Shown: positions 763 through 15,861 of the stretch, one piece after another
Layout: every line of letters starts with the position of its first letter
Numbering within the stretch: position 1 is the stretch's first letter
Assembly: GCA_016790475.1 (NCBI GenBank)
Contig: JAEUOX010000181.1
Location: 1 to 39,883, forward strand
Direction of reading: 5' to 3'
From: Rhodoferax sp.
Lineage (GTDB): Bacteria; Pseudomonadota; Gammaproteobacteria; Burkholderiales; Burkholderiaceae_C
DNA length: 39,883 nucleotides
Made by a program: the position numbers and the translations under genes
Notes under the pieces: generated by a model
Database searches by the model: none
Seen by the model: only the letters and a program-made list of their open reading frames with translations
What the model was told of the DNA's origin: nothing

Positions 763-768
763 CCTATT

Positions 769-840
769 CCCGCGCATGCGGGTTACATCGACGGGCAGAA
801 CCTGCTGATGGACGGCGGGTCGTTTCCGCGGACGATGTGA
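769..840 (+). pseudogene. Short-chain dehydrogenase, C-terminal fragment
   Basis: The frame ending at TGA 838-840 reads GYIDGQNLLMDGGSFPRTM. This matches the conserved C-terminal signature of classical short-chain dehydrogenases/reductases (GYxTGQxLxxDGG). Everything upstream, including the Rossmann fold and the Tyr-x3-Lys site, is missing, and the mobile-element remnant lies directly before it. The likely history is insertion or recombination of the IS91-type element into an SDR gene, leaving only the tail. The fragment cannot be functional. Confidence 0.65.
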
Positions 841-982
841 GGCATTGAGGGCCGGCGCGCACACCCTACGGCCGTCGCAGGAACAGCTGACCTGCGGGAC
901 CCGTGCCCACCGTGGTTATGCTGGACCGGCAGACGCGCCGGCCAGTCCGTAGCCGGCGCAGTCTCCCATCAGGGTCCAGGCA

Positions 983-1966
983 TCAAGAGCCGAATTTTTG
1001 CTTGATGTTGAGGCGTTGGATGACCTCGCCCCACTTGGCCAGCTCCTGCTTCGTGAATTCCTCGAATTGCGCGGTGCCGAGTGGGCGCACCTCGAAACCT
1101 GCGGTTTCCAGTCGCTGCCGGCTTTCGGGCTGTTGCATGCCTTCCACGATGTCGCGTCCGAGCTGTTCCAGGATGGGCCGTGGCGTGCCTGCGGGCGCGT
1201 AGATGCCGAGCCAACTCGTGACGTTGAAGTCGGGCAGTCCCGACTCTTGCATGGTCGGGACGTCCGGCAGGTGCTTGGAGCGGTAGTTGCTTGTCACGGC
1301 CAGCGCCTTGATGCGACCGTCGCGCATCAGGGGGAGCACGGACGGAAGGTTGGCGAAAGTGCACTGCAGACCGCCATTCACCACATCCACGAGGATCTCG
1401 CTGGCGCCCTTGTAGGAAACCACTTCCATCTTCACGCCAGTGCGCATGCCGAAGAACTCGCCCGCCAGGTGGGCGGAACTCCCGATGCCGTTGGCGCCGA
1501 ACAGCAGGGGCTTGTTCTGGGCTTTTACACTCTTGATGAAATCGCCCACGGTGTTGGCGGGGTGGTTGCGCGGCACCACCAGCACGTTCACGAATTCGGA
1601 CGTGAGCGCCACCGGAACCAGGGCCTTGAGGACGTCCAGGGGCAGACCCTCGACCGTGAGGGGCGGCAGGACGTTGCCGCCGAGGCCACCGGAGCTCAGC
1701 ACGTAGCCGTCTGGGGGCGCCTTTGCAACCACCTGCTGACCGATCACGCCACTGGCACCCGGGCGGTTTTCCACCACCACGGACTGCCCGTACTTCTTGG
1801 CCAGCATTTCTCCGACGACGCGTGCCGCGATATCGGTCACGCCGCCGGCGGGATACCCCACCACGATACGCATGCCGTGAGATGGAAATTTCTCCTGCGC
1901 ATTCACGGGAACGTAACCCGCGGCCATTGAGGTGCCCAGAGTCCATATTGCTTGTCGACGATCCAT
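983..1966 (-). CDS. Bug/TctC-family periplasmic substrate-binding protein
   Basis: A 327-aa tripartite tricarboxylate transporter (TTT) receptor-like protein. The start at 1966 was chosen because AAAGG lies a few bases upstream and the protein then begins MDRRQAIWTLGTSMAAGY, a secretion signal probably cleaved after VNA; the 15 extra codons available upstream look non-coding. The mature part has the usual family features: RIVVGYPAGGVTDIAAR near the start, a VVENRPGASG motif, then FxANLPSVLPLMRDGRIKALA. Such proteins bind carboxylates in the periplasm and present them to TctA/TctB permeases, but no permease genes are seen here, as is common for orphan Bug genes in Burkholderiales. It is separated from the preceding cupin gene by a hairpin terminator, so it may have its own promoter in the AT-rich stretch at 1967-2060. 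The ligand is unknown; the context suggests a substrate of the neighbouring pathway. Confidence 0.88.
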   Translation of the reverse strand: MDRRQAIWTLGTSMAAGYVPVNAQEKFPSHGMRIVVGYPAGGVTDIAARVVGEMLAKKYGQSVVVENRPGASGVIGQQVVAKAPPDGYVLSSGGLGGNVLPPLTVEGLPLDVLKALVPVALTSEFVNVLVVPRNHPANTVGDFIKSVKAQNKPLLFGANGIGSSAHLAGEFFGMRTGVKMEVVSYKGASEILVDVVNGGLQCTFANLPSVLPLMRDGRIKALAVTSNYRSKHLPDVPTMQESGLPDFNVTSWLGIYAPAGTPRPILEQLGRDIVEGMQQPESRQRLETAGFEVRPLGTAQFEEFTKQELAKWGEVIQRLNIKQKFGS

Positions 1967-2094
1967 ATCAAGCCTTTCAAAAGGAAAAAAAACAACGAAG
2001 AACCGAATCAAATCAATTAAGTGACAATCAGATTATCCTACTTATAGGTCTGCGGGATCTACCGATTGCCGCACCATGGCGTGTCTCCCCTCCT

Positions 2095-2132
2095 GCAAAA
2101 CCTGGCCGCGCACACGCGTGTGTGCGGCCAGG
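2095..2132 (-). terminator. Hairpin terminator after the cupin gene
   Basis: Bases 2101-2132 form a near-perfect palindrome (16-bp arms, one G-T pair, e.g. CCTGGCCGC at one end and GCGGCCAGG at the other). On the minus strand it is followed by TTTT (2097-2100). It would end transcripts of the long catabolic operon before the Bug gene. The T-tract is short, so leakage is possible. Confidence 0.6.
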
Positions 2133-2143
2133 AGTTCGAGAAT

Positions 2144-2650
2144 TCAGCGAATGAAGGAGGACACGAAGTCGGCTCCCAGGCCCGCCTTGATGTAGTGCGC
2201 CCTGCACATTTCGATCTTCGTGAAAACGTCTTCGTAGCCCGTTTGCCGGCCCTGCTCGTCCACGTAGACCATGGCACCGCTGACGTTGAAGAAGGTGATC
2301 ATCTCGTCGGAGGGGCCATTGGCCTCCACCACCAGCGTGTGGATTTCCCCCGGTGGCTCATAGACGAATTTGCCCTCGCTGGCGATCCAGTCGTGTTCGA
2401 GGTAGCGCCAAGTGCCCTTGACCACATACCCGAAGACGGCGCCAGGGTGAATGTGTCGGCTCAGCACGCCGGAGCGGCGCACCCGCAGCATGTTGCACCA
2501 GCCACCGGTGACCGTGTTGAGAAACAGCGGGCGGAACCAGACGTTGGGCGCTTGTTCCACCCATTCGCGTTCGTCTTCGGGAATGGCTGCGATGGCGAGC
2601 TCAGGCTGGATGCCGGAGTGCTGCGTGATCAGGGATAGGTCGGCTGGCAT
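2144..2650 (-). CDS. Cupin protein, 2,4'-dihydroxyacetophenone dioxygenase-like
   Basis: A 168-aa single-domain cupin. The metal site is visible: His66-x-His68 in SRHIHPG, an acidic/His pair at Glu85-His86, and His104 in GEIHTL, the pattern of mononuclear Fe cupin dioxygenases. The overall look (an N-terminal segment with NVWFRPLFLN, then GxVxGYVVKGTWRYLEHDW) resembles the 2,4'-dihydroxyacetophenone dioxygenase family, which cleaves a carbon-carbon bond next to a ketone. That family assignment is from memory of the motif pattern, and the real substrate is unknown. It is the last gene before a terminator and begins 50 bp after the aldehyde dehydrogenase stop, with only a weak ribosome site. 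In the context of a Rieske dioxygenase cluster it could open or shorten a side chain of an oxidised intermediate. Confidence 0.75.
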   Translation of the reverse strand: MPADLSLITQHSGIQPELAIAAIPEDEREWVEQAPNVWFRPLFLNTVTGGWCNMLRVRRSGVLSRHIHPGAVFGYVVKGTWRYLEHDWIASEGKFVYEPPGEIHTLVVEANGPSDEMITFFNVSGAMVYVDEQGRQTGYEDVFTKIEMCRAHYIKAGLGADFVSSFIR

Positions 2651-2700
2651 GGGGGGCCTCGTAGGTTCAAAAAGGGGTTGGTGTTGGCCGGGGCGCGTAT

Positions 2701-4137
2701 TCAGGCTGCGATGTAGGCAGTCTTCACGGTGGTGTAGAACTCGACGGCGTGGCGGCCTTGCTCGCGTGGGCCGTAGCTGGAGCCTTTGCGGCCTCCGAAA
2801 GGTACGTGGTAATCCACGCCGGCGGTAGGGCAGTTGACCATCACCATGCCGGCCTCGGCGCGTTGGCGGAAGTCCATTGCGCGCGCCAGCGAGGTAGTGC
2901 AGATGCCGGCTGACAGGCCGAAGCGGGTGTCATTGGCCAACGCAAGTGCCTCCTCGTAGTCGCGGGCCGGCACGAGTGTGGCGACGGGGCCGAAGATTTC
3001 CTCGCGACAGATGCGCATGCCGTTGTCGCAATCCGCAAAGAGTGTGGGGGTCATGTAGTAGCCCTCCGTGGAGGCACGTATGCGCTCGCCGCCATGGACA
3101 AGATGGGCACCTTCCTCGCAGCCCAGCCGCACGTAGTCCAGGTTCTGCTGCAATTGCGCAGCGCTGGCCACGGGGCCGATCTGCGACGAAGGGTGCAGCG
3201 CGTGGCCCACACGCAGTTCACGCGTGCGCTGCGCCAATGCATCACGAAAGCGCGCGTAGATGCCGCGCTCCACGATGATCCGGCTGGACGCAGTGCAGCG
3301 TTGTCCGGTCTGGTAGAAAGTGCCTTGCAGCGTGGTTTCGACGGCCACCTCCAGGTTCGCGTCGTCCAACACCACCAGCGGGTTCTTGCCGCCCATCTCC
3401 ATCTGCAGCTTGGCCAGCCGCTGTGCGGCTGTGATGGCGATGCCGCGTCCGGTCTGCTCCGATCCAGTGAAGCTGATCGCGTCCACGCGCGCATCCTCCA
3501 GCAGCGCCTGGCCCACGACGCTGCCACGCCCCATGACGAGGTTGAAGGCGCCCGCTGGCAGGCCGCTGCGGCTGATGATCTCTGCCAATGCCCAGGCCGA
3601 ACCGGGCACCAGGTCCGCGGGCTTGAGCACCACGGTGTTTCCGAAGGCAAGGGCCGGTGCGGTTTTCCAGGCGGGGATCGCCATCGGGAAGTTCCACGGC
3701 GTGATGATGCCGACGGTTCCGACCGGTTCGCGTGTTACGGCGACTTCTACGCCCCGGCGCATGGGGGGCGCCAGTTCTCCGGGGACCCGCATGGCCTCGG
3801 CGGCAAAGAACTTGAAGATGCTGCCCGCGCGCACGACCTCGCCCACGGCCTCGGGCAGGGTCTTGCCTTCTTCGCGTGCCAGCAGGGTTCCCAGCTCCTC
3901 GCGGCGTGACAGGATTTCGATGCCGATGCGTTCGAGTACGTCGGCGCGATCCTGCGCGGTGCTGCGCGCCCAGATGGCACGCGCACCGTTGGCGGCGGCG
4001 ATGGCCTGCCGCGTCAACGCGGCGTCAGCCTGCGCGTATTCGCCGACGACTTCGGAGAGGTCGGATGGATTGGTGTTCGGAGAGGCCGAATGGCCGGCGA
4101 CCCACTCGCCGCCGATGAAGTGCTTGTGCATGGACAT
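2701..4137 (-). CDS. NAD(P)-dependent aldehyde dehydrogenase, ketoglutarate/succinate-semialdehyde type
   Basis: A full-length 478-aa aldehyde dehydrogenase. The catalytic residues are present: Glu247 in LQMEMGGKNP and Cys281 in TGQRCTASS, 34 residues apart as usual. The cofactor-binding PWNFP and FTGS motifs and the late EEIFGPV motif are also seen. The C-terminal run GVDYHVPFGGRKGSSYGPRE resembles the ALDH branch that includes 2-oxoglutarate (2,5-dioxovalerate) semialdehyde dehydrogenases of sugar-acid pathways. It starts 15 bp after the TPP enzyme gene ends, clearly in one operon. Neighbours supply possible aldehydes: a sugar-acid-type dehydratase, a 2-keto acid decarboxylase-like enzyme and a GABA-type aminotransferase. 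Which aldehyde it takes (2-oxoglutarate semialdehyde, succinate semialdehyde or an aromatic aldehyde) cannot be fixed from sequence. Confidence 0.9.
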   Translation of the reverse strand: MSMHKHFIGGEWVAGHSASPNTNPSDLSEVVGEYAQADAALTRQAIAAANGARAIWARSTAQDRADVLERIGIEILSRREELGTLLAREEGKTLPEAVGEVVRAGSIFKFFAAEAMRVPGELAPPMRRGVEVAVTREPVGTVGIITPWNFPMAIPAWKTAPALAFGNTVVLKPADLVPGSAWALAEIISRSGLPAGAFNLVMGRGSVVGQALLEDARVDAISFTGSEQTGRGIAITAAQRLAKLQMEMGGKNPLVVLDDANLEVAVETTLQGTFYQTGQRCTASSRIIVERGIYARFRDALAQRTRELRVGHALHPSSQIGPVASAAQLQQNLDYVRLGCEEGAHLVHGGERIRASTEGYYMTPTLFADCDNGMRICREEIFGPVATLVPARDYEEALALANDTRFGLSAGICTTSLARAMDFRQRAEAGMVMVNCPTAGVDYHVPFGGRKGSSYGPREQGRHAVEFYTTVKTAYIAA

Positions 4138-4152
4138 GGGGCTCGTGGGGAG

Positions 4153-5718
4153 TCAGGGCAAGACGACCTCGATGAGTCGGGGGCCGCGTTCGGCCAGGGC
4201 CGCCTGGAAGGCACGGCGCAGTGCGGATACGGAGTCCACGCGGCTGGCCGGCACGCCGAAAGAGGTGGACAGGGCTTGCCAGTCCACGGCCGGGCGCCCC
4301 AGGCTCAACAGATCGCGCACCGATTCGCTCGTGAGCTCGTAGCCGGTGCGTGCCATCTCGTTGATGAGGATGTTGTAGCGTCGGTTGCTTGCCAGTACTA
4401 CCACCACATCGCTGCCTTCACGGGCCATGGACCACAGTGCCTGGATGGTGAACAGCGCACTGCCGTCGGATTGCAGCGCCACCACCTTGCGGTCCGGGGC
4501 GGCCACGGAGGCGCCAAAGGCCGAGGGCAGACCCTGGCCGATGGCGCCGCCCGTGAGCACGATGGTGGTGTGGCGCTCGGCCTGGGAGGCCAGGGCATTG
4601 AAAGGAAAACCCAGGGTGGCGCCTTCGGCGGAGACGATGGCGTTGGCGGGCAGATGGGCGGCGATGACGCGCGAGGCCGTTTCGGCCGTCAGTGCCTCGC
4701 CCAGGTCGGTGTCGGACACCCGTTGCAACAGGGCCATGGGCGCCGCAGGAGGACGTACGCGTTCGAGCAGATCGTCCACCGCCTCGCCGACGCGGCCACG
4801 GGGGCCACAGAGTTGCACCATGCGTGCCGGGTCTCCCAGGTGGCTCGGAAGGCCCCGTGCGCCGAAGAAGGCCACGGGGGGCTCGGCACCGAGCACCGCG
4901 ATGCGTTCGAAGCCCAGCAGGTACGGATGCGCCTTCTCTGCCAGCGCGACCAGCCGCTTGACTGCGGGGAGCCCCAGGCCTTGCTCGCTGGCAGCGGGGA
5001 AAGTTTCTCCCACCAACTCCACATTCGGCAACGCGGCCAACCGCGCCAGGCGCCGCAGAGTACCCTCGCCGAGCGCGTCGGCACCGAGATACAGCAGCAC
5101 CTTGCGGCCGGCCGTGATGTCGGCTGCCACCGTTGCCACGGCACCGGCGTTGTAGTCCGCGGGTGCCTGTGCCGCCACCGCGGGCGCGATGGCGTGGTGT
5201 ACCGGGTCCTCTTGCAGGTCCATGGGCAGAATCAGCGTGTGGATCCCGCCGATCTGCTGCAGCCCGTGCAGCGCACCCACCGTGGCGCTGTGCAGCGTGG
5301 CGGACGTGTCGGCGCGCCAAACACCTGCCGATACCGGACGGGCCAGCGATTCAATGTCGCTGGCCAGCGGGGGGTCGGCCGCCACGTGCCAGGACATGTG
5401 TTCCCCGATGACGTTGAAGATGGTGGAACGTGCGCGTCGCGCGTTGTGGAGGTTCGCGATCGCGTTCGCGAAGCCCGGCCCCAGATGGGTCAGCGTCATC
5501 GCCGGCTTGCGACGGATGCGGTAGTAACCATCTGCAGCGCCCGAACAGACGCCCTCGAACAGTCCCAGTAGCGGGCGGATTTCGGTGGCACGGTCCATCG
5601 CTGCCACGAAGGGCAGCTCCGTGGTGCCCGGGTTGGCGAAGCAGACCTCGATACCGGCGGCAGCGGCCGACTTGAGCAACCACTGCGCGCCCATCATCTG
5701 CGAGGCGTCCTGGCTCAT
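4153..5718 (-). CDS. TPP-dependent enzyme, benzoylformate decarboxylase / acetolactate synthase-like
   Basis: A 521-aa thiamine diphosphate enzyme with the three-domain layout of the family: N-terminal PYR domain with NPGTTELPF and catalytic Glu55 in LFEGVCSGAADGYY, a central domain, and a C-terminal PP domain with the Mg-TPP motif around SDGS (Asp418) and a downstream ASNRRYN. The NPGTTELPF signature is close to that of benzoylformate decarboxylases (MdlC) and related 2-keto acid decarboxylases; automatic pipelines often call this group acetolactate synthase large subunit. No small regulatory subunit gene is nearby, arguing against a biosynthetic synthase. The ATG overlaps the aminotransferase stop by 4 bp (ATGA, 5715-5718), so translation is coupled; the 43 extra codons upstream were rejected because they lie inside that gene. 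It probably decarboxylates a 2-keto acid to the aldehyde used by the next gene. Confidence 0.82.
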   Translation of the reverse strand: MSQDASQMMGAQWLLKSAAAAGIEVCFANPGTTELPFVAAMDRATEIRPLLGLFEGVCSGAADGYYRIRRKPAMTLTHLGPGFANAIANLHNARRARSTIFNVIGEHMSWHVAADPPLASDIESLARPVSAGVWRADTSATLHSATVGALHGLQQIGGIHTLILPMDLQEDPVHHAIAPAVAAQAPADYNAGAVATVAADITAGRKVLLYLGADALGEGTLRRLARLAALPNVELVGETFPAASEQGLGLPAVKRLVALAEKAHPYLLGFERIAVLGAEPPVAFFGARGLPSHLGDPARMVQLCGPRGRVGEAVDDLLERVRPPAAPMALLQRVSDTDLGEALTAETASRVIAAHLPANAIVSAEGATLGFPFNALASQAERHTTIVLTGGAIGQGLPSAFGASVAAPDRKVVALQSDGSALFTIQALWSMAREGSDVVVVLASNRRYNILINEMARTGYELTSESVRDLLSLGRPAVDWQALSTSFGVPASRVDSVSALRRAFQAALAERGPRLIEVVLP

Positions 5719-6998
5719 GCGCAGGCTCCGCCAGCCGGTACGGCAGCCTGCAATGCGGACTCGAGGATGTCCAGCGCCTCGTCGAAGACCGCATCGGTCG
5801 TGGTGAGCGGGAACAGGAAGCGAATCACGTTGCCGTACTGGCCACACGTGAGCAGAATCAACCCGGCATCCAGCGCTGCCTGGCGCACGCGTTGGGCGAT
5901 CTCGGCGCTGGGCGCGCCTTGCGCGTCGCGAAACTCCACCGCCACCATCGCGCCCAGGGCGCGTACCTCGCTGATCGCCGCGCAGCGCGCACGTGCGGCT
6001 TCGAGCCGCAACACCAGACGTTCACCCAGTGTGTTGCCGCGCGCCAGCAGGGACTCTTCGGCAAAGATGTCCAGCACGGCGTGGGCTGCGGCAACGGCCA
6101 GCGGGTTGCCGGCATAGGTGCTGCCCAGCCCCCCGGGGGCGATGGCATCCATTACCTCGGCGCGGCCCACGACGGCGGCCAGCGGCATGCCGGCGGCCAG
6201 GCTCTTGGCGGTCGTGACCAGGTCTGCGGAGACGCCGTAGTGTTCCATCGCGAACATCCGGCCCGTGCGGCCGAAGCCCGACTGAATCTCGTCGGCGATG
6301 AGCAGCATGCCGTGTTCGTCGCAGATGCGGCGCAACGCGGCCATGAAGTCCTTCGGTGCGGGATGGAAGCCGCCCTCGCCCTGCACGGGCTCGACGATGA
6401 TGGCGGCGATCCGCGACGGCTCCACGTCCGACTTGAACACGCGCGCCAGCGCATCGAGTGCGTCCTGTGTGGTGATGCCCTGCGCGGTGGCCGGGAACGG
6501 AACGCGGTACACGTCGCCGGGAACGGGGCCGATGCCTGCCTTGTAGGGCACGACCTTGCCCGTCAGCGCCAGCGCCATCAGCGTGCGGCCATGGAAGGCG
6601 CCGTTGAAGGCGATGATGCCCGGGCGCCCGGTGGCGGCGCGCGCGATCTTGACGGCGTTTTCCACCGCTTCCGCGCCGGTGGACATGAGCAGGGTCTTTT
6701 TGGCGAATGTCCCGGGCGTGAGCTGGTTCAGACGCTCGGCAAGCCGGATGTAGCTCGCATAGGGCACCACCTGGAAGCAGGTGTGCAGGAATTCGCCGGC
6801 CTGGGCGACGATGGCGGCCTGCACGCGTGGATGGCGGTGGCCGGTGTTCAGGACGCCGATGCCGCCCACGAAGTCGATGTAGCGGCGGCCGGCTTCGTCC
6901 CAGAGTTCGCTGCCCAGGGCACGGGCTGCGAGGATGTGGGTGGAGACGGCGACGCCGCGGGGGCAGGCCGCCTGCTGGCGGGTGATCCAGTCGTTCAT
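5715..6998 (-). CDS. 4-aminobutyrate aminotransferase-like PLP enzyme (GabT family)
   Basis: A class III aminotransferase of 427 aa, close in length and sequence to GabT of E. coli. Visible motifs are GGIGVLNTGHRHP, TGAEAVENAVKIARAATGR (PLP phosphate binding), EPVQGEGGF, the DEIQSGFGRTG segment with the PLP-binding Asp, and the Schiff-base lysine Lys265 in TTAKSLAAGMPL. The start at 6998 gives MNDWITRQQAACPRGV, which aligns with the GabT N-terminus; an alternative ATG at 7040 overlaps the dehydratase stop (TGATG) but adds 14 low-complexity His/Pro/Thr residues. It converts an omega-amino acid plus 2-oxoglutarate to a semialdehyde plus glutamate, and the ALDH two genes on could oxidise that product. 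The true amino donor in this cluster is unknown. Confidence 0.9.
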   Translation of the reverse strand: MNDWITRQQAACPRGVAVSTHILAARALGSELWDEAGRRYIDFVGGIGVLNTGHRHPRVQAAIVAQAGEFLHTCFQVVPYASYIRLAERLNQLTPGTFAKKTLLMSTGAEAVENAVKIARAATGRPGIIAFNGAFHGRTLMALALTGKVVPYKAGIGPVPGDVYRVPFPATAQGITTQDALDALARVFKSDVEPSRIAAIIVEPVQGEGGFHPAPKDFMAALRRICDEHGMLLIADEIQSGFGRTGRMFAMEHYGVSADLVTTAKSLAAGMPLAAVVGRAEVMDAIAPGGLGSTYAGNPLAVAAAHAVLDIFAEESLLARGNTLGERLVLRLEAARARCAAISEVRALGAMVAVEFRDAQGAPSAEIAQRVRQAALDAGLILLTCGQYGNVIRFLFPLTTTDAVFDEALDILESALQAAVPAGGACA

Positions 6999-7039
6999 GG
7001 GAGTGGTGGGGGTGGGATGTGGGTGAGAGGGTGGATGCA

Positions 7040-8800
7040 TCAGGTGGCGACGTGGCGCAAGAAGTCGAAGTCGCAGCCGTGTTCGGCCTGCAGGATGTGC
7101 TGTTGGTACAAGCGTCCGTATCCGCGCGCGGGCAGTGCGGGGATGGGGGGCAGGGTGGTTCTGCGCCGCGCCAGCTCGGCTTCGTCGACGAGCAGGTCGA
7201 TGCGCCGCTGCGACAGCGACAGGCGGATCTGGTCGCCGTTGAGTACCAGTGCCAGCGGGCCGTGCAGTGCTGCCTCGGGCGAGATGTGCAGCACGATGGT
7301 GCCGTAGCCCGTACCGCTCATGCGCGCATCCGAGATGCGCAGCATGTCCTTGACACCGCGTCGGGCCAGCTTCGCGGGAATGGGAATGTAGCCGGCCTCG
7401 GGCATCGCCGCCGCCACGGGCCCGGCGTTGCGCAGCACCAGGATGTCCTCGGGCTCCACATCCAGCGTCTCGGAGTCCAGGCGCGCTGCCATGTCTTCCA
7501 GCGAATCGAAGACCACGGCGCGCCCGGTGTGCTCGAACAGGCGTTCATCGGCAGCGGCGCGCTTGATGAGCGCACCGTTGGGCGCGAGCGTGCCGAAGAG
7601 ACCGATCAGCCCGCCATCCTTGCGCAGCGGTTCGTTGCGTGGGCGGATCACGGCAGGGTCGAACCAGTCATCTGCGCTCGCCTCCATCACTTCACCCAAG
7701 GTCTTGCCCGTCACGGTCATGCAATCCAAGTGCAGCAGGTCCTTCAACTGGCGCAGGATGGCCGGAACGCCGCCAGCGGCGTGCAGGTCTTCCATATAGA
7801 ACGCGCCGGTAGGCTTCAGGTCCACGAGCACGGGGGTGCTGTCGGCCAGCGCGTTGAGCATGTGGGGTGTGACGGCGATGCCCAGCCGTCCCGCGATGGC
7901 CGTGAGGTGGATCAGGGCGTTGGTCGATCCACTGATGGCCAGCAACACGCGCAGCGCGTTCTGTATCGAGTTGGGCGTGACGATGTGATCGGGCTTGAGG
8001 CCTTGGCGCGCCAGCCACACGGCCTGGCGGCCGGTAGCCTCGGCGGCGCGCAGCCGGTTGGCATGCACGGCAGGGATGGCCGCGGTGGCCGGCAACATCA
8101 TGCCCAGCGCTTCCACGATGCAGGCCATGGTGCTGGCCGTACCCATCACCGCGCAGGTGCCGGCCGTGGTGGCGAGGTTGCCTTCGATCTCGGCGATCTG
8201 CTCGGTGGACACCTCACCCGCACGGTGCTTGCCCCAATAGCGGCGGCAATCCGTGCAGGCACCCAACCGCTCGCCCCGGTAGTTGCCGGTCATCATCGGG
8301 CCACCCACCAGCTGGATCGCGGGGCGCCCAGCCGACAGCGCACCCATGAGCTGGGCGGGCACGGTCTTGTCGCAGCCGCCCACCAGCACCACCGCATCCA
8401 TGGGCTGGGCGGTGATCATCTCCTCCACGTCCATGGACATGAGGTTGCGGAACTTCATGCTCGTGGGCGAGAGGAAAGGTTCGCCCAGCGAGATGGTCGG
8501 AAAGTCCATCGGCAGCCCACCGGCGGACAACACGCCCCGCTTGAGCGCCTCCATCAGCTCGGGGAAGTGCCGGTGGCAGTTGTTGTAGCCACTGGCGGAA
8601 TTGGCGATGCCGATGACGGGCCTGGAGAGCTCTTCATCCGAGTAGCCCATGGACTTGGCGAAGGACTGGCGCAAGTAGCGCGAGAAGGCCTTGTCGCCGT
8701 AGTTCGTGAGCCCGTCGTTCAGGCCCTTGTGGACATGCACGGGTGCTTCTCCCGCCGCAGCCAGTGGAGTGGCAATGTTGCCAGCGCGAATGGTGCTCAT
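7040..8800 (-). CDS. IlvD/Edd-family sugar-acid dehydratase
   Basis: A 586-aa dehydratase of the dihydroxy-acid / sugar-acid family. Three cysteines that would hold the [2Fe-2S] cluster stand at Cys75 (GYNNCH), Cys143 (GGCDKT) and Cys216 (AGTCAVMG). Their spacing (68 and 73 residues) is the same as I recall for L-arabinonate dehydratase. CTDCRRYWGKH and DARMSGTGYGTIVLHISPEA are further family hallmarks; the Ser in the last motif is the likely base. The enzyme removes water from a 2,3-dihydroxy acid to give a 2-keto-3-deoxy acid. Typical partners in pentonate catabolism are an aldolase or dehydratase and 2-oxoglutarate semialdehyde dehydrogenase; here the partner is a TPP decarboxylase-like enzyme, and no KDG aldolase or DHDPS-type dehydratase is seen. 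The substrate is therefore open. Its stop touches the next possible start (TGATG). Confidence 0.9.
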   Translation of the reverse strand: MSTIRAGNIATPLAAAGEAPVHVHKGLNDGLTNYGDKAFSRYLRQSFAKSMGYSDEELSRPVIGIANSASGYNNCHRHFPELMEALKRGVLSAGGLPMDFPTISLGEPFLSPTSMKFRNLMSMDVEEMITAQPMDAVVLVGGCDKTVPAQLMGALSAGRPAIQLVGGPMMTGNYRGERLGACTDCRRYWGKHRAGEVSTEQIAEIEGNLATTAGTCAVMGTASTMACIVEALGMMLPATAAIPAVHANRLRAAEATGRQAVWLARQGLKPDHIVTPNSIQNALRVLLAISGSTNALIHLTAIAGRLGIAVTPHMLNALADSTPVLVDLKPTGAFYMEDLHAAGGVPAILRQLKDLLHLDCMTVTGKTLGEVMEASADDWFDPAVIRPRNEPLRKDGGLIGLFGTLAPNGALIKRAAADERLFEHTGRAVVFDSLEDMAARLDSETLDVEPEDILVLRNAGPVAAAMPEAGYIPIPAKLARRGVKDMLRISDARMSGTGYGTIVLHISPEAALHGPLALVLNGDQIRLSLSQRRIDLLVDEAELARRRTTLPPIPALPARGYGRLYQQHILQAEHGCDFDFLRHVAT

Positions 8801-8853
8801 GGCTCAGCTCCGGACTGCGGTGTGGGTGCCCGCAGGGCTACCGGGGTATGGAG

Positions 8854-9822
8854 TCATACCGCCCACACACCGGGGTTGACCATGGCCTTGGGCGTCTTGC
8901 CTGCCAGCGCATCCAGCAGGTTGTTGGTCGCCAGCTCGATCATGGCGCGGCGGGTTTCCACGGTGGCGCTTCCGGCGTGCGGCTGCAGCACCACGTTGGG
9001 CAGGTGGCACAGCGGGCTGGCGCCGTCCAGGGGTTCTTGCACCATCACATCCAGCCCGGCGCCGGCGATACGGCCCTGTTGCAAATGCGCGATGAGGGCG
9101 GGCTCGTCCACCACGGGGCCGCGCGAGGTGTTGATGAAGAAGGCGCTGGGCTTCATGAGGCCCAGTTCCCGTGCACCGATAGACGCGCGTGTGGTGTCGC
9201 TGAGCGGCACGTGCACGCTGACGAAGTCACACTGCGCGAACAACGCGTCGCGCTCCAGGTAGCTGGCCAAGCCGCTTTGTTCCGACGCCGTGTCGCGGCT
9301 GCGGTTGTGGTAGCTGACCGCCATGCCGAAGGCCCGCGCACGCAGGGCCACCATGCGGCCGATGCGGCCCATGCCCAGCAGACCGAGGCGCTTGCCAGCC
9401 AGATCGGTGGCCAGCGGTGCGGGCTTGGTCTTCCAGGTGCCCCTGGCCACGAAAGTGTGCATGGGCACCAGGTTGCGGGCCAGGCACAAGACCAGGCCGA
9501 ATGTCAGGTCGGCCACCGCGGCGTCCAGCACACCGGGGGTGTTGCATACCAGCACCTTGCGTGTGTTGACGACGGGAACCGAAACGTTGTCGAAACCCAC
9601 CGCGTAGTTGGATACGACCTTGAGTTGGGGGAAGGCATCCAGCAGCGCCTCGTCCACGCGTGTCTTCAGCGTGCACAACAGGCCCTTTACCTCGGCGCGC
9701 CGGCCGACTTCGGTGATGACCTCCTGTGGGGGCGTGCCGGCAGGCACCTGGACTACGGTGTGCAGGGCCTGCACGCGGGACAACAGATCGGGTGGCAGGG
9801 TGGCGGAGACAATGACGGTCAT
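8854..9822 (-). CDS. D-2-hydroxyacid dehydrogenase (glyoxylate/hydroxypyruvate reductase-like)
   Basis: A 322-aa NAD(P)-dependent D-isomer 2-hydroxyacid dehydrogenase. The Rossmann motif GLLGMGRIGR is followed by the catalytic set: Arg in FINTSRGPVVDE, Glu in DVMVQEPL and His in LQPHAGSATVETR. SNYAVGFDNV in the substrate domain is the usual substrate-loop motif. It interconverts 2-keto and 2-hydroxy acids. The start at 9822 (MTVIVSATLPPDLL) fits the family; the 46 additional codons upstream would cover the neighbouring small gene and are not credible. Ribosome site is weak. In this operon it may reduce a 2-keto acid intermediate or oxidise a 2-hydroxy acid substrate to feed the keto-acid steps. 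Confidence 0.88.
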   Translation of the reverse strand: MTVIVSATLPPDLLSRVQALHTVVQVPAGTPPQEVITEVGRRAEVKGLLCTLKTRVDEALLDAFPQLKVVSNYAVGFDNVSVPVVNTRKVLVCNTPGVLDAAVADLTFGLVLCLARNLVPMHTFVARGTWKTKPAPLATDLAGKRLGLLGMGRIGRMVALRARAFGMAVSYHNRSRDTASEQSGLASYLERDALFAQCDFVSVHVPLSDTTRASIGARELGLMKPSAFFINTSRGPVVDEPALIAHLQQGRIAGAGLDVMVQEPLDGASPLCHLPNVVLQPHAGSATVETRRAMIELATNNLLDALAGKTPKAMVNPGVWAV

Positions 9823-9866
9823 CGGGTGTTTTCTCAAAGGGGGAAATGCAAAAAGGGGTTGACGAA

Positions 9867-10064
9867 TCAGGTCAGGCCTTCGATGTCTTGCGCGAAGACG
9901 GGCTCTATGGGGCCCGTGGCGGCATCGGACCCGGGTGGCACGGCACGGCACATCAACCAACTGCCGTCCTGCGGGTTCTCGACCACCTCCACACGATCGC
10001 CGGCCTTGGTGGTCAGGCGCATGCCGGGTTGGACATCGACGAGGTTCAGGGTTCTGGAGGACAT
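9867..10064 (-). CDS. Unrecognised 65-aa protein in the dioxygenase operon
   Basis: A small reading frame between the ferredoxin (13 bp upstream) and the 2-hydroxyacid dehydrogenase (44 bp downstream), in the same direction. The protein begins MSSRTLNLVDVQPGMRLTTK and contains GDRVEVVENP and GSWLMCRAV. The alternating hydrophobic/charged pattern and the PGM...GDxVEVV start look like a small all-beta (SH3/KOW-like) fold. There is one cysteine, so it is not an iron-sulfur protein by itself. No membrane segment or signal peptide. Its tight place next to the ferredoxin suggests a role with the Rieske system, but I do not recognise the family and assign no function. Confidence 0.7.
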   Translation of the reverse strand: MSSRTLNLVDVQPGMRLTTKAGDRVEVVENPQDGSWLMCRAVPPGSDAATGPIEPVFAQDIEGLT

Positions 10065-10077
10065 GGTTGGAATTCCT

Positions 10078-10404
10078 TCAATAGGGAATCTGTTCGGAGG
10101 GCACGGTGACCTCGATCCCGTCGAGTTCCGCAGTCATCACCAACTGGCACGACAGGCGGCTGGTGGGACATGATTCGGGGGCGAATTCCACCAGCGCCAG
10201 TTCGGTGTTGTTGGCGGCTTCCAGTTTGGGAAACCATTGCGGATGCACGATCACGTGGCAGGTACCGCAGATGGCGCCGCCGCCGCAGTCGGCGACGATC
10301 CCGTCAACGGAGTGTTCACGCGCGGCTTCCATGAGACTTGCGCCCAGGGGCAGATCCAGGGTACGGGAGGTCCCATCGGGCAGGTGAAAAACGGCTGTTG
10401 CCAA
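10078..10404 (-). CDS. [2Fe-2S] ferredoxin, adrenodoxin/putidaredoxin type
   Basis: A 108-aa soluble ferredoxin. Cluster ligands are Cys40, Cys46, Cys49 and Cys86 (C-x5-C-x2-C-x36-C, in DCGGGAICGTCHV and SRLSCQL), the adrenodoxin/putidaredoxin spacing and not the Rieske type used by many dioxygenase ferredoxins. The C-terminus has IEVTVPSEQ, a typical closing strand. It lies 74 bp after the dioxygenase beta subunit gene and would pass electrons to the alpha subunit's Rieske centre. No NAD(P)H:ferredoxin reductase gene is seen in the window, so a reductase encoded elsewhere must reduce it. Confidence 0.93.
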   Translation of the reverse strand: MATAVFHLPDGTSRTLDLPLGASLMEAAREHSVDGIVADCGGGAICGTCHVIVHPQWFPKLEAANNTELALVEFAPESCPTSRLSCQLVMTAELDGIEVTVPSEQIPY

Positions 10405-10478
10405 AGCTGGCTCCTAAGGGGGCAATGGAGGGGGTGCCACGCGTCGCCGCGGACGGACGGTATCTGCGTCGAAAGAGG

Positions 10479-11033
10479 TCAGAAGAAGATGGTCAGGGCC
10501 TTGGCCGTCAACACGGTTTGGTCCAGGTAGAGCTCGCGGCGCAACAGGCGTAGCCCCTCGGGCGTGTCACGCAGCGTGTCCTCGCGTTTGCCAATGAACA
10601 GGTTGTTCTCGGTTTGCCCCCGGTTCTGGTTCACCAGAAAACGTGAGCGCACTCGCAGCTGCCGGCTTCCATCGTCCTGCGCGTCGATGGCCAGGATCCG
10701 GATGTTCGTGACCAGGTGCGAGACGCGCGAAGCGGGTTCCTCGGCCCAGTGGATGCCGGTCTTGAATTGGGCCACGCGCTGACGCAGCGTGGTGATGCCC
10801 TCGTCGAACCACGCTGTCTGGCCGGTAGCGGTGTATTCCCGGCCCACTTGGTCACGGCGCACGTTGCGCGCGATGGGCATGCGGTACTGGATCGCTTCGT
10901 CCAACAGTCCCAGCCAGGCTTCGTAGTCGCGGCCGTCGAGCAGGTCGGCCTCCATGTGCAGGAACTGGCACACCTCCCACCATGCGTCCGGGGTGACAGC
11001 CAGCGAAGGCTCGGGGATCGGGGCCTCAGACAT
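10479..11033 (-). CDS. Ring-hydroxylating dioxygenase beta subunit
   Basis: A 184-aa small subunit of a Rieske non-haem iron oxygenase, of the SnoaL-like (NTF2-like) fold. Segments such as FLHMEADLLDGRDYEAWLGL near the N-terminus, a central IQYRMPI strand, HLVTNIRI and RSRFLVNQNR in the second half are typical. The start at 11033 gives MSEAPIPEPSLAV and overlaps the alpha gene by 8 bp (ATGTCTGA, 11026-11033); upstream codons lie inside the alpha gene. The subunit is structural, building an alpha3beta3 hexamer with the preceding product. The overlap implies coupled, near-equal synthesis. Confidence 0.9.
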   Translation of the reverse strand: MSEAPIPEPSLAVTPDAWWEVCQFLHMEADLLDGRDYEAWLGLLDEAIQYRMPIARNVRRDQVGREYTATGQTAWFDEGITTLRQRVAQFKTGIHWAEEPASRVSHLVTNIRILAIDAQDDGSRQLRVRSRFLVNQNRGQTENNLFIGKREDTLRDTPEGLRLLRRELYLDQTVLTAKALTIFF

Positions 11034-12408
11034 GCCTAGCCTCCATCGGCACGGGTTGCGCGGCTCTGGACGCGGACATAAGGGATTCCCAGGACTGCCC
11101 CTCCATGAACTGTTTCCACCGCCCGTAGAAGATGCGTGCGTTCTCCTCCGTGAACTCGCCGTTCTCGATGGCACCCGTGAGGCCGGGCACGGGACGCGCA
11201 TGGCCCAGGCCCATCTGGTAGTTGAAGAACATCTGCGAGGCGACCGCCCCCTGGCTGGCTTCGGTCGCGCCGGTCCAGTTCTCCATGTCGTCGGACTCGG
11301 TCATGCCACCGGGGCCTGAGTAGCGCAGGTAATAGTGGCGCGCGGCCTCCTTGACGGCTTCGGGTGCGTCCTTATCCACTAGGTAGATGCGCCACATCTC
11401 CATCTCGGTGGGGCTGACCGGGTGGAAGACCGCGATGGTGCGCGGCTGGCGGCCATGGAAGGACATGTTCGGGAAGATCGTGCCCACGCTGTGCAACACA
11501 CGCATGCCGTCGCCGAGTCGGGCTTGGCGCTTCTCGTGGAGCTCGCGGTAGTAGGCTTCCACTGCGGGGTCCTGCGTCCATAGCGGCGCATAGGGTGGCT
11601 CCTCGTGGTACGGCTTGCGGCCGACCAGGCCATGGCCCAGGTGGGGAAATCCCACCGTCATCCGTTGTGGGGTGGGATCACGCCGACCCTTGCCGCCGGA
11701 GGGGCCGATGCCGACGATGTCGACCGACCGGTGGCTGATGTCGTGGTAGAGGTCGCCAATGAAGTTCTCGGGAGCGAACTTCCAATTGCACTTGACACGC
11801 CACTTCTGCACGCCGGCAATGACCTCGGAGCCCCCAGGGCTGCCGTCGCGGTGGTCCAGCGCATAGTCCAGATAGTGGCGCATATCCCCGATGTAGTCCT
11901 CGAAGTCAGGGGCGTTGGCATCCCAAGTGGCCCAGATGGAGCCCTTGTAGTTGTGCATGCGTGCCACGCGTTTCAGGCCCCAGTCCTTCTTGTTGAGCTC
12001 CCCGTGGTAGTGGGTGGCGAAGCCGGGAACACCGATGAGTGCACCAGGCTGTTCGACGAGGCGCCCGTTGGTGGAGAAGCTCCAACCATGGTAGGGGCAG
12101 GTGAAGGTGCGGTTGTTGCCGTGGTCGTAGCGACACAGCTTCATGCCACGGTGGGGGCAGCTGTTGAGAAAGACGTGGAGCTCACCCTGAGGATCGCGCG
12201 TGAGAATGACGGGGTCGGTGCCCATGCGCGAGATGAAATAGTCATCTGGGTTGGGTACCAGGCTCTCATGGCCCACGAAGAGCCAGGCCTTGGCGAAGAT
12301 CTCGCGCATCTCCGCCTCGAAGATCTCCTGGTCAACGAAGATCCGTCTGCCGATCAGCCCCTTCTCGAGTTTGACCAGGTCGTCGAGGGTGTTGAGTCTC
12401 GGGTTCAT
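11026..12408 (-). CDS. Rieske ring-hydroxylating dioxygenase alpha subunit
   Basis: A 460-aa catalytic subunit. The Rieske cluster ligands are Cys84 and His86 in SCPHRGMKLC and Cys104 and His107 in TCPYHGWSF (C-x-H-x17-C-x2-H). The mononuclear iron site is in NWKFAPENFIGDLYHDISH: bridging Asp219, ligands His222 and His226, with the carboxylate ligand Asp373 or Asp374 in ESDDMENW. The two His ligands are separated by three residues, one fewer than in naphthalene-dioxygenase-type enzymes (His-x4-His), an oddity worth modelling. The presence of a beta gene and of ESDDMENW places it nearer the two-subunit naphthalene/biphenyl-type oxygenases than the phthalate type. The ATG overlaps the GntR regulator stop by 4 bp (12405-12408). 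It inserts O2 into an aromatic or similar substrate; the substrate cannot be read from sequence. Confidence 0.93.
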   Translation of the reverse strand: MNPRLNTLDDLVKLEKGLIGRRIFVDQEIFEAEMREIFAKAWLFVGHESLVPNPDDYFISRMGTDPVILTRDPQGELHVFLNSCPHRGMKLCRYDHGNNRTFTCPYHGWSFSTNGRLVEQPGALIGVPGFATHYHGELNKKDWGLKRVARMHNYKGSIWATWDANAPDFEDYIGDMRHYLDYALDHRDGSPGGSEVIAGVQKWRVKCNWKFAPENFIGDLYHDISHRSVDIVGIGPSGGKGRRDPTPQRMTVGFPHLGHGLVGRKPYHEEPPYAPLWTQDPAVEAYYRELHEKRQARLGDGMRVLHSVGTIFPNMSFHGRQPRTIAVFHPVSPTEMEMWRIYLVDKDAPEAVKEAARHYYLRYSGPGGMTESDDMENWTGATEASQGAVASQMFFNYQMGLGHARPVPGLTGAIENGEFTEENARIFYGRWKQFMEGQSWESLMSASRAAQPVPMEARHV

Positions 12409-13172
12409 CGCTTCCTTCCTATCTTCGGTTTGTCTTCTGAGGTCTGCTGGCCGGTCTTCAGCCGCAGGGCCGTGCTTTCCACATGTGTATTGGCGCGTTC
12501 GCGCGCCAGCGCCGCATCACCGGCCTCGATGGCCTTGAGCAGACGCTCGTGCTCGCCCTGCGCGTCGGCCGTACGACCAGTGGCCTTGGAGCCTTCTCGC
12601 GAGACGGTGAGATTCTTCTTGTAGAGCTCGGCGATGAAGCCGAACATCGCGATGTAGTGCTCGTTGCGCGTGGCAACGGCAATGGCGTGGTGGAAATCCA
12701 GATCCGCCTGGACGCCTGCGGCGACGTCGCCGGTGCGAATGGCGACGCGCATCCGGTCCACGGCGTCGTGCATCATTTCTAGATCGTCCGGCGTGCGGCG
12801 TTGCGCGGCCAGGGCGGCGGCGACCATCTCGAAGCCCTGGCGCAGTTCAACGATGGACAGTGCTTCGTTGTAGTCGCCCGCCTCGGCCGCATGCATCTTC
12901 AACACGGTGGGTCGGCGGTTGGCCTGCACGATCAGGCCGCGCCCTTGCTTGCTGATCACATAGCCCTCGGCCTTGAGTCGGGCCACGGCTTCGCGCAGTA
13001 CCGTACGCGAGACGCCCATATGTTCTGCGATCAGTTGCTCGGAAGGCAACACATCGCCGGGCTGGTATTGCCCGGCCGTGAGCTGCGAGAGCAAACGCTC
13101 AGTCACGCGCTCGGTCAAGTTGGGTTCGGACCGCAGCGCGACGGCGCTGCCTAGGTCATCAAGTAGACGCAT
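12405..13172 (-). CDS. GntR-family (FadR/FCD) transcriptional regulator
   Basis: A 255-aa repressor-type regulator. An N-terminal winged helix-turn-helix is seen at about residues 35-85 (GQYQPGDVLPSEQLIAEHMG, SRTVLREAVARLKAEGYV, KQGRGLIV). The C-terminal all-helical FCD effector domain has the Asp/His pattern of metal-binding members (DLDFHHAIAVAT, HERLLKAIEAGD). Such proteins usually bind a carboxylic acid from the pathway they control. The gene is first in the dioxygenase operon and overlaps the alpha gene by 4 bp, so it is co-transcribed with its presumed targets. A palindrome 28 bp upstream of its start, and a similar one before the ridA-like gene, are candidate operators. The basic C-terminal tail (KPKIGRKR) is unusual but short. 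Confidence 0.92.
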   Translation of the reverse strand: MRLLDDLGSAVALRSEPNLTERVTERLLSQLTAGQYQPGDVLPSEQLIAEHMGVSRTVLREAVARLKAEGYVISKQGRGLIVQANRRPTVLKMHAAEAGDYNEALSIVELRQGFEMVAAALAAQRRTPDDLEMMHDAVDRMRVAIRTGDVAAGVQADLDFHHAIAVATRNEHYIAMFGFIAELYKKNLTVSREGSKATGRTADAQGEHERLLKAIEAGDAALARERANTHVESTALRLKTGQQTSEDKPKIGRKR

Positions 13173-13199
13173 GGGTTCTCCATTTGTACGATAAAAGCA

Positions 13200-13213
13200 C
13201 TATATGCATATAG
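13200..13213. promoter_or_regulatory. Candidate GntR operator upstream of gntR
   Basis: CTATATGCATATAG is a perfect 14-bp palindrome in the 72-bp gap between the nitroreductase stop and the gntR start. It lies in an AT-rich stretch flanked by ATTTGT and ACAAAT, themselves inverted repeats. A related sequence (TATAAGCATAT) occurs upstream of the ridA-like gene. Binding by the local GntR protein is an inference from position and symmetry. Confidence 0.55.
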
Positions 13214-13244
13214 CACAAATCTTAGTCGTCCAAAGAGCCTGATC

Positions 13245-14024
13245 TCAGACCAGATGAAAACCCTGCTGCGCCAGAACCTGCGCAACATCGGCGTAGTCCG
13301 CGCTCTCATAGCGCTTCGAGATCCAGTCCGTCCATACCGGGGCACTCGCTTTGCCCAACGCTTCCGAGTAGTCGCTGTATTGCGCGTCGAGGGGGGCCAG
13401 GCTGTCTTGCGAGTGCTGCGTCTGGTAACGCTCCTCGTGCGCGAAGGCCTGCAGGCCGATGCGGGGCTTGAGCGCGGCGGGCACCTTGGCGGGATGGCCA
13501 AGACACAGGCCGGCCAGGGGGTAGGTCAGGGTGGGCAGTTCCAGCAAGGTGCAGACATCGGCACTGTTGCGCCGCACACCGCCGATAGGGCAGACCGCCA
13601 AGCCAGCCGCGCGGGCTGCCGCCATCAAAGTACCAAGCACGATGCCGGCGTCTACGGCGCCGATGAGCACGGCGTTCTGGTTCTCATGCACACGCTGCGT
13701 GCGCCCATGTTGTTGCGCTGCCATGGCGCTGCGGCAGAAGTCCATCACCAGTACCACGAAGATGGGCGCGCGCGCGATGCTGGCCTGGTTGCCACACAGG
13801 GCCGCCATTTGCTGTTTGCGATGACTGTCCCTGAGCACGATGGCCGTGACGTGCTGGCCGTTGTTCCAGTTCGCGGCACGCAAGCCACAGGTGAGGACGT
13901 TGTCCAGTGTGCTTTCGTCGATGGGGGCGTCGGTGAACTCTCGCGCACTATGATGGCCTTGGAGCAGGTCCCACACGGCGGGGGCGAAGGCATTGTTTTC
14001 TGGGATGGTTGCCATGGATGTCAT
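13245..14024 (-). CDS. NfsA/FRP-type nitroreductase-like flavoprotein
   Basis: A 259-aa nitroreductase-fold protein. The N-terminal HHSAREFTDAPIDESTLDNV matches the RRSxRxFxxxxV FMN-binding start of the family; VCPIGGVRRN and PLAGLCLGHPA are the second FMN-contacting region, as in NfsA-type proteins. It would use FMN and NAD(P)H to reduce nitro groups, quinones or flavins. The start at 14024 overlaps the preceding stop by 4 bp (ATGA); the alternative ATG three codons on (14015) is possible. It lies between the ridA-like gene and gntR and reads in the same direction as the dioxygenase operon. It is not of the ferredoxin-reductase fold, so it does not fill the missing reductase slot in an obvious way. 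The physiological substrate is unknown. Confidence 0.85.
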   Translation of the reverse strand: MTSMATIPENNAFAPAVWDLLQGHHSAREFTDAPIDESTLDNVLTCGLRAANWNNGQHVTAIVLRDSHRKQQMAALCGNQASIARAPIFVVLVMDFCRSAMAAQQHGRTQRVHENQNAVLIGAVDAGIVLGTLMAAARAAGLAVCPIGGVRRNSADVCTLLELPTLTYPLAGLCLGHPAKVPAALKPRIGLQAFAHEERYQTQHSQDSLAPLDAQYSDYSEALGKASAPVWTDWISKRYESADYADVAQVLAQQGFHLV

Positions 14025-14452
14025 GCCCTTTCGCGTGCGGCCAGCGGCTCGATTTCCAACAGCCAGCCCGCGTTGACCAAGCCCGCCACCTGCAGCACGG
14101 TCCGCGAGGGAAAACGGGTCGCGCGCTGGCCGAAAAACTCGGACCAGGCCGCATTGAAACCCTCGAAATCCATACGCCCGATGCGCGGGTCGGCCACCAG
14201 ATAGACCCGTGCGCCCACCAAGTCCTCCAGCGTCAGCTGAAGTTCCTGCAGGACACCCGCCACACGCCCCAGGCAACCCAAGGTCTGCTGGCGTGTGTCG
14301 CCGAATGCTTCTAACGACTGGGGATCGACGGAGGGGTTCACCACGGGGGGCATCTGGGCGCTGATCATCACCAGATTGCGGGAGGCGCCGATTTCCACGG
14401 CGCGCGACAACAAGGACGTGGAAATGGGTGATGAGGTGCGGTGCAATGTCAT
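14021..14452 (-). CDS. RidA (YjgF/YER057c/UK114)-family protein
   Basis: A 143-aa protein with the RidA fold pattern: RNLVMISAQMPP replaces the usual xxSGQIP strand, LGRVAGVLQELQLTLEDLVG is the central helix, and PSRTVLQV carries the conserved Arg that binds the substrate carboxylate in active RidA enzymes. Family members deaminate reactive enamine/imine intermediates, and some subfamilies act in aromatic catabolism (for example 2-aminomuconate deaminase). It is the first gene of the minus-strand run and starts just downstream of an AT-rich palindromic stretch. The start at 14452 (MTLHRTSS) was preferred over 14479, which would lie inside the putative operator. The exact substrate is unknown. 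Confidence 0.82.
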   Translation of the reverse strand: MTLHRTSSPISTSLLSRAVEIGASRNLVMISAQMPPVVNPSVDPQSLEAFGDTRQQTLGCLGRVAGVLQELQLTLEDLVGARVYLVADPRIGRMDFEGFNAAWSEFFGQRATRFPSRTVLQVAGLVNAGWLLEIEPLAARERA

Positions 14453-14469
14453 GGTGGATTCGGAAAGGC

Positions 14470-14490
14470 GTATAAGCATATTATCGTATA
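14470..14490 (-). promoter_or_regulatory. Candidate operator/promoter upstream of the ridA-like gene
   Basis: The AT-rich stretch contains TATAAGCATAT (14471-14481), matching the core of the palindrome before gntR at 10 of 11 positions, followed by TATCGTATA. It lies 18 bp upstream of the ridA-like start, where a -10 element is expected. Shared use by the GntR regulator is inferred. Confidence 0.45.
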
Positions 14491-14552
14491 AACATCTTGA
14501 ATGCAAGTCGAACCCACCGATGTCGCAGCAAACAAGACCGGATAGTGAGCGT

Positions 14553-15701: not shown

Positions 15702-15715
15702 ATTTCCTAGTGTCC

Positions 15716-15805
<90 letters not shown>

Positions 15806-15815
15806 GGTGCGCGGC

Positions 15816-15821: not shown

Positions 15822-15861
15822 GCAGCGGGTTCTGCGCTGCCCGGCGGCACGGACCGCCGTC

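Follow-up and report, generated by a model that had tools for sequence, protein, structure and literature searches.

This article concerns a run of genes on the minus strand of Rhodoferax sp. DNA, at positions 983 to 14452 of what we call the window: a stretch of 39,883 nucleotides that makes up one whole contig (C212; GenBank JAEUOX010000181.1) and to which all coordinates refer. At the heart of the run is a two-subunit Rieske dioxygenase; around it are enzymes of sugar-acid and amino-acid type. Judged by its distribution, the set is a real conserved catabolic unit, more than a chance assembly, because its genes recur together in other genomes. Our preferred account of what the unit does is a tentative one, and we would not put it as high as an even chance: that it breaks down a five-membered heteroaromatic ring carboxylated at C2, the likeliest being a 2,5-dicarboxylate such as furan-2,5-dicarboxylate (FDCA) or a pyrrole analogue, and yields 2-oxoglutarate. 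What we observed is which genes are present, which families they belong to and that they stay associated; the substrate, each reaction and the order of reactions we infer. The source genome is incomplete (4.77 Mb, 517 contigs, 89.8% complete).

Thirteen genes were recognised through Pfam and NCBIfam and a fourteenth, c1, through comparison with relatives. An earlier, sequence-only reading of this DNA had named most of the families, and both databases agree with it, all of them lying on the minus strand within 983–14452. Its count of fourteen genes holds once c1 and a TctC/Bug gene (983–2011) are included, neither of which it had named. The genes, from right to left, are as follows.

14021–14452, minus strand: distant RidA-family protein (Pfam Ribonuc_L-PSP; TIGR00004 at 33 bits against a cut-off of 106)
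13245–14015, minus strand: nitroreductase-family flavoprotein (Pfam), read from the ATG at 14015; a second in-frame ATG upstream overlaps the RidA stop; nearest solved structures ycnD and NfrA2
12405–13172, minus strand: GntR/FCD regulator (Pfam)
11026–12408, minus strand: Rieske dioxygenase alpha subunit (Pfam Rieske and Ring_hydroxyl_A)
10479–11033, minus strand: Rieske dioxygenase beta subunit (Pfam Ring_hydroxyl_B)
10078–10404, minus strand: 2Fe-2S ferredoxin of the C-x5-C-x2-C type (Pfam Fer2)
9867–10064, minus strand: c1, 65 amino acids, between ferredoxin and HADH, conserved in relatives
8854–9822, minus strand: D-2-hydroxyacid dehydrogenase (HADH; NCBIfam, solved relatives, conserved motifs)
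7040–8800, minus strand: IlvD/Edd-type dehydratase (over the PRK06131 cut-off)
5715–6998, minus strand: class-III aminotransferase of the gamma-aminobutyrate (GABA) transaminase type, GabT (over the TIGR00700 cut-off)
4153–5718, minus strand: thiamine pyrophosphate (TPP) enzyme (over the PRK07586 cut-off)
2701–4137, minus strand: aldehyde dehydrogenase (ALDH; Pfam Aldedh, NCBIfam)
2144–2650, minus strand: cupin like 2,4'-dihydroxyacetophenone dioxygenase (Pfam Cupin_7, solved relatives)
983–1966, minus strand: TctC/Bug substrate-binding protein (Pfam TctC), its reading frame open to 2011 with a TTG

The case for a unit comes from other genomes. A search at E 1e-80 through 299 genomes of the family to which the window belongs gave alpha matches in nine others, the best three at 52–54% identity and of a sister type described below. 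A second family of Burkholderiales proved the richer source: at E 1e-160, alpha was found in 32 of 268 genomes, at 67–77% in 31 of them and at 56% in G1169. We fetched the surroundings of all 32, with contig ends shortening the flanks in G1234 and G1169, and longer stretches for eight. Counts over 31 relatives use per-gene identity thresholds and leave out the window and the sister-type locus of G1169. Near alpha in these 31 stand beta (31), HADH (30), TctC (30), c1 (26), GntR (26), ferredoxin and ferredoxin reductase (24 each), then the TPP enzyme and ALDH (11 each), GabT (10), IlvD (7), the cupin and RidA (6 each, RidA at 44–50%) and the nitroreductase (5). On the longer stretches, G1228 and G1230 add IlvD and the cupin beyond these counts, and hold the window's whole set except the ferredoxin within about 14 kb, RidA being on the opposite strand. 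The earlier suggestion of one uncharacterised catabolic cluster is supported, alpha, IlvD and the TPP enzyme standing together in both genomes. An alpha scan of genome contigs found one further relative, in Roseomonas harenae (68%), with GntR, alpha, beta, TctC, ferredoxin, reductase and c1; its only HADH relative is at 39% and on the opposite strand. In a class sample of 369 genomes, at E 1e-165, alpha was matched in the window's own genome alone.

How might these proteins work together? TctC would capture the acid and the GntR/FCD protein would sense it. The dioxygenase would dihydroxylate C2 and C3, giving a hemiketal or hemiaminal because C2 also carries the ring heteroatom. Opening of the ring is to be expected because one hydroxylated carbon bears both the heteroatom and the carboxylate, and without any ring-cleaving enzyme this product would become HOOC-CO-CHOH-CH2-CO-COOH (3-hydroxy-2,5-dioxoadipate, if the substrate were FDCA). 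The GhrB-like HADH would then act on its 2-keto-3-hydroxy end, a reduction that makes 5-dehydro-4-deoxyglucarate (HOOC-CHOH-CHOH-CH2-CO-COOH); IlvD would dehydrate this 2,3-dihydroxy acid to 2,5-dioxoadipate; the TPP enzyme would decarboxylate that to 2,5-dioxopentanoate; and ALDH would oxidise the last to 2-oxoglutarate. With nitrogen as the ring atom, there could be an imine or enamine for RidA to hydrolyse. GabT, the cupin and the nitroreductase have no role in this scheme. A sugar-acid-like route from an opened ring would account for HADH, IlvD, the TPP enzyme and ALDH jointly. We favour it because HADH is present at 30 of the 31 related clusters, the sole miss (G1234) being cut by a contig end, and because the four families suit the steps proposed for them. 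It gains further support because no dihydrodiol dehydrogenase was recognised among the genes of the window cluster, the rest of the genome not having been searched for one.

The families deserve a closer look. HADH scores best in NCBIfam with glyoxylate reductase and GhrB, both under cut-off, and its best solved match carries the name 'probable 2-ketogluconate reductase'; Arg, Glu and His motifs, whose roles we assume, are kept in 31 sequences. Glyoxylate/hydroxypyruvate and 2-ketogluconate reductases act on a group of the HOOC-CO-CHOH- type. The best solved relatives of IlvD, which passes PRK06131, are dihydroxyacid and L-arabinonate dehydratases, and its three Cys motifs occur in eight of eight aligned sequences. 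For the TPP enzyme, which clears PRK07586 at 563 against 363, the nearest solved structures are benzoylformate decarboxylases. Its ELPF/ELPM and LTHLGPG motifs are found in 12 of 12 sequences, the latter holding a His that we take to mark decarboxylases, and we propose that it is a 2-oxoacid decarboxylase. ALDH, we propose, is a 2-oxoglutarate-semialdehyde dehydrogenase; its best NCBIfam score is with the alpha-ketoglutaric semialdehyde (KGSA) dehydrogenase model NF042993, whose cut-off it misses (531 bits against 770). GabT clears TIGR00700 (567 against 507) and misses the other GABA-transaminase models shown, such as PRK07495 (649 against 724). It retains the residues aligned with I50, R141, E211 and R398, presumably the GABA-site residues of the Escherichia coli enzyme, so that an omega-amino acid resembling GABA is its expected substrate. 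At a guess, this could be an aminomethyl-ring acid, or GABA freed from an N-substituted pyrrole. The best solved relatives of the cupin are 2,4'-dihydroxyacetophenone dioxygenases, which cleave a C-C bond.

The alpha subunit has the residues expected of a Rieske oxygenase. Alpha residues C84, H86, C104, H107, H222, H226, D373 and D374 are invariant across 19 aligned sequences; the first four we take to be the Rieske motif, and His, His, Asp to be ligands of the mononuclear iron. For both alpha and beta the top-scoring models are those of 3-phenylpropionate/cinnamate dioxygenase. Both miss the HcaEF equivalog cut-offs (NF042946, 341 against 830; NF042947, 127 against 230), and beta passes the broader PRK10069 (177 against 145). 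Among solved proteins the best matches are HcaE/HcaF and biphenyl dioxygenase, which resemble the window's enzyme in being two-subunit oxygenases with the Rieske and mononuclear-iron ligand positions. They differ in several respects: the window alpha falls short of the HcaE equivalog cut-off, HADH and c1, and no recognised dihydrodiol dehydrogenase, stand beside the oxygenase, and the stretch between the presumed iron-ligand His residues is shorter, three residues in the window (222–226, HDISH) against four in HcaE and five in biphenyl dioxygenase in the printed alignments; two actinobacterial relatives, L022 and L023, also have four. The ferredoxin motif CGGGAICGTCH is kept in 25 of 26 aligned sequences. 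A ferredoxin reductase gene, nearby in 24 of the 31 relatives, is absent from the window cluster, and the ferredoxin is presumably served by a reductase borrowed from elsewhere in the organism.

The best clue to the chemistry of the product came from a comparison with cousins. Thirteen sister loci (L021, L025, L027, L028, L093 and L107–L114), their alphas at 49–54%, have the order alpha–SDR–beta–c1, where SDR is a short-chain dehydrogenase/reductase of the class that often serves as dihydrodiol dehydrogenase. The c1 gene was found by tblastn in 12 and by profile in the thirteenth (G1063); eight of these loci, L107–L114, were selected for having c1, so their c1 is not independent evidence. A 2Fe-2S reductase gene precedes alpha in 12 of 13, TctC genes are often present, and none of the 13 has an HADH match. 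This exchange of HADH for SDR between the groups suggests that the window's dioxygenase probably makes an opened 2-keto-3-hydroxy acid and not a stable cis-diol, since HADH stands where the sister group has its SDR.

The strongest outside support comes from a plasmid of Rhodococcus qingshengii CX-1 (L020). One gene run there holds alpha (52.5%), beta, c1 and HADH (42%), and further a ferredoxin, an FAD (flavin adenine dinucleotide)-dependent oxidoreductase, two ALDHs and a protein of the KdgD subfamily, which clears PRK03620 (321 against 278). KdgD converts 5-dehydro-4-deoxyglucarate to 2,5-dioxopentanoate and CO2 in one step. IlvD and the TPP enzyme would together be its two-enzyme equivalent, because the net change is identical.

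A fair amount weighs against this proposal, and it is best set out together. None of the cluster's genes was recognised as specific to furans, and the solved relatives of alpha carry benzenoid or phenylpropanoid substrate names. PRK07586, whose cut-off the TPP enzyme clears, is a curated model that bears the name acetolactate synthase large subunit. Among the models shown, neither ALDH nor HADH reaches an equivalog cut-off. The Rhodococcus cluster has an SDR as well as HADH, one that differs from the sister-type SDR, and its KdgD-like protein misses the stricter equivalog TIGR03249 (276 against 374). In two loci on actinobacterial plasmids, L022 and L023 (alpha at 49%), there is no match to HADH or to the sister SDR; they carry a beta-hydroxyacid-dehydrogenase-like gene. 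The presence of KdgD does not follow cluster type: it occurs in 14 of 16 genomes without clustered IlvD/TPP and, over cut-off, in 12 of 16 with one or both (Fisher p = 0.65), counting as present the G1076 gene, which contig ends have split, and placing G1234 in the IlvD/TPP group. G1127 and G1130 have neither clustered IlvD/TPP nor a KdgD over cut-off; both have IlvD homologs (62–63%) elsewhere in the genome. And G1225, G1138 and G500 have IlvD and no TPP match at E 1e-110.

Other explanations have to be weighed against the same facts. The sequence-only reading had favoured a substrate with a ring and a hydroxylated or aminated side chain. In its worked-out form, an aromatic compound would carry a 2-hydroxy or amino acid side chain, HADH or GabT would produce a 2-oxo acid for the TPP enzyme and ALDH, and the Rieske enzyme would attack the ring. 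We think this unlikely. It draws on the kinship of the TPP enzyme with benzoylformate decarboxylases among solved structures, on the phenylpropionate/cinnamate models that alpha and beta score best with, and on the tie between GabT and the TPP enzyme: GabT occurs in 10 of 12 clusters with the TPP enzyme and in none of 19 without it (the window counted, G1234 left out). A benzenoid ring, however, is less well supported now that neither a dihydrodiol dehydrogenase nor a recognised family of catechol-cleaving dioxygenase has been seen in the window cluster, where the cupin is the sole candidate for the latter; the search for both covered the cluster genes and not the remainder of the genome. HADH stays where TPP, ALDH and GabT are not found, being near 30 of 31 alphas against 11 for TPP and ALDH and 10 for GabT; IlvD is left unexplained; and the GabT site, if we have its residues right, is that of a GABA-type omega-amino-acid enzyme, not an alpha-amino-acid one.

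Perhaps two modules have been joined, one built around the dioxygenase (GntR, alpha, beta, ferredoxin, HADH, TctC) and one of sugar-acid or amino-acid type (IlvD, GabT, TPP, ALDH, cupin), each acting on a different compound. Half of the genomes, 16 of 32, have the first module without clustered IlvD or TPP, and the two cupin relatives examined among 139 plasmid records, in Acidovorax (71.8%) and Paracoccus (66.7%), lie near sugar-acid genes. Yet a search of the 31 other genomes turned up TPP orthologs (57–65%) in 11, in every case at this cluster. IlvD orthologs of at least 73% exist in nine of the 31, eight at the cluster and one (G1234) on a different contig. The genes of the second module vary in position between genomes, yet keep close to alpha. 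An arrangement of unrelated parts seems to us improbable on this showing, at about the same level as the side-chain pathway.

Quite unlikely, in our estimate, is a ring with a single carboxylate, 2-furoate or pyrrole-2-carboxylate, from which IlvD would arrive at 2-oxoglutarate semialdehyde directly, the TPP enzyme and GabT serving another intermediate. The clusters of G1225 and G1138 (its IlvD is 61% identical), with IlvD and ALDH and no TPP ortholog, are what it would lead one to look for; but the window's TPP enzyme would have no task, and KdgD, whose relative sits in the Rhodococcus cluster, acts, as we understand its chemistry, on a C6 diacid.

Two rejected candidates concern the actinobacterial loci. 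The class II aldolases near alpha in L022 and L023 pass the cut-off for PhtC, the 3,4-dihydroxyphthalate decarboxylase, and suggested a phthalate-type pathway; none such was recognised in the window cluster, and the L022 aldolase gene adjoins a separate phthalate-like set. A GarL/GarR route in those loci was dropped as well, the aldolases matching PhtC and the beta-hydroxyacid dehydrogenases falling far under the tartronate semialdehyde reductase cut-off.

How does the heteroaromatic-acid proposal sit beside known systems? In the glucarate pathway, the KdgD branch passes through 5-dehydro-4-deoxyglucarate, the proposed common intermediate, to 2,5-dioxopentanoate. The window differs in having IlvD and a TPP enzyme, and no KdgD over the TIGR03249 cut-off was found in its genome (89.8% complete). 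The Trudgill/Hmf pathway (hmfABCDE, hmfFGH) shares its end product, 2-oxoglutarate, with the proposed route, and according to PMC6604932 it can start from FDCA. There, however, FDCA is first decarboxylated, and a coenzyme A (CoA) thioester and a furoyl-CoA dehydrogenase follow; none of these was recognised in the window cluster, and hmf genes elsewhere in the genome fell outside the search. In the Variovorax iad auxin pathway (IadCDE) a Rieske oxygenase begins the breakdown of an N-heterocycle, as PMC10374108 and PMC12633357 describe. We set it aside as a model: the gene sets differ, the IadD structure (9o71, given that name in PMC12633357) is a distant match to alpha at E 4e-35 against 1e-91 for HcaE, and the words dehydratase and hydroxyacid are absent from the main text of PMC10374108. 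The sequence-only reading knew of no described pathway with this gene set. Among the literature matches listed, which are open-licence papers only, none was seen to describe the set or a Rieske route through 5-dehydro-4-deoxyglucarate.

This brings us to a bolder version of the proposal, and a doubtful one. The cluster could represent an undescribed Rieske route from furan- or pyrrole-2,5-dicarboxylates to 2-oxoglutarate that needs neither CoA nor a ring-cleavage enzyme, the ring opening spontaneously after dihydroxylation at C2 and C3. IlvD and the TPP enzyme would replace KdgD, rings bearing an aminomethyl or GABA group would fall to a GabT/RidA variant, and c1 would be a new small beta protein dedicated to this oxygenase lineage.

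The small protein c1 has a story of its own. Conserved in relatives, it has no Pfam or NCBIfam match. Its AlphaFold2 model (mean predicted local distance difference test score, pLDDT, 91.1) is a small beta fold of five strands, with which Foldseek gave no match at E ≤0.001, the best being 0.026; the weak matches include many small-barrel domains. In the second family, c1 is present in 29 of 32 genomes with alpha at the threshold used and in 8 of 236 without (Fisher p 3e-28, for genomes that are related and hence not independent); those eight hold sister clusters. In G1231 (L105) and G1232 (L106), c1 adjoins a TctC gene far from the alpha locus, with no dioxygenase match in the fetched stretch, and because of this placement c1 is not strictly tied to alpha. 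A phylum sample of 249 genomes (E 1e-6) gave one match, the window's own genome. By its distribution, c1 is a frequent companion of this dioxygenase lineage; going by gene position, our guess would be that it partners the oxygenase in assembly or electron transfer.

As to the setting, co-transcription is plausible because cluster genes overlap or nearly touch, as at GntR/alpha, alpha/beta, IlvD/GabT and GabT/TPP. A scan for sigma-70-like promoters over 500–15900 on both strands gave 0 sites against 1.9 expected. Third-position GC is 0.72–0.86 in 13 cluster genes against 0.90–0.94 in ten genes to the right (within 15862–39761, among them SPFH, IF-2, BipA, IMP dehydrogenase and GMP synthase), the boundary in codon usage falling near a tRNA-Ser gene (15716–15805). 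Between RidA and the tRNA lies a C-terminal piece of MurJ (14553–15065, minus strand; profile positions 335–440 of 451), apparently a truncated gene. At the far left contig end is a Y2_Tnp transposase fragment (9–266, plus strand; Pfam E 4e-6), which we take to be IS91-type. The three other listed genomes of the same genus have no alpha at E 1e-80. Horizontal acquisition of the cluster is probable, given its different third-position GC, the tRNA-Ser gene and the MurJ and transposase fragments that flank it, and congeners without alpha. As a separate observation, window positions 303–541 are 79% identical to a Piscinibacter plasmid.

If the proposed pathway is right, it links Rieske oxidation of aromatics with sugar-acid catabolism, two areas usually kept apart, and it names an intermediate that can be tested. 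Nature may then have a second route for FDCA, a bioplastic monomer, or one for pyrrole carboxylates. Even with the wrong substrate, the conserved cluster, the HADH/SDR exchange and the unannotated c1 are solid leads.

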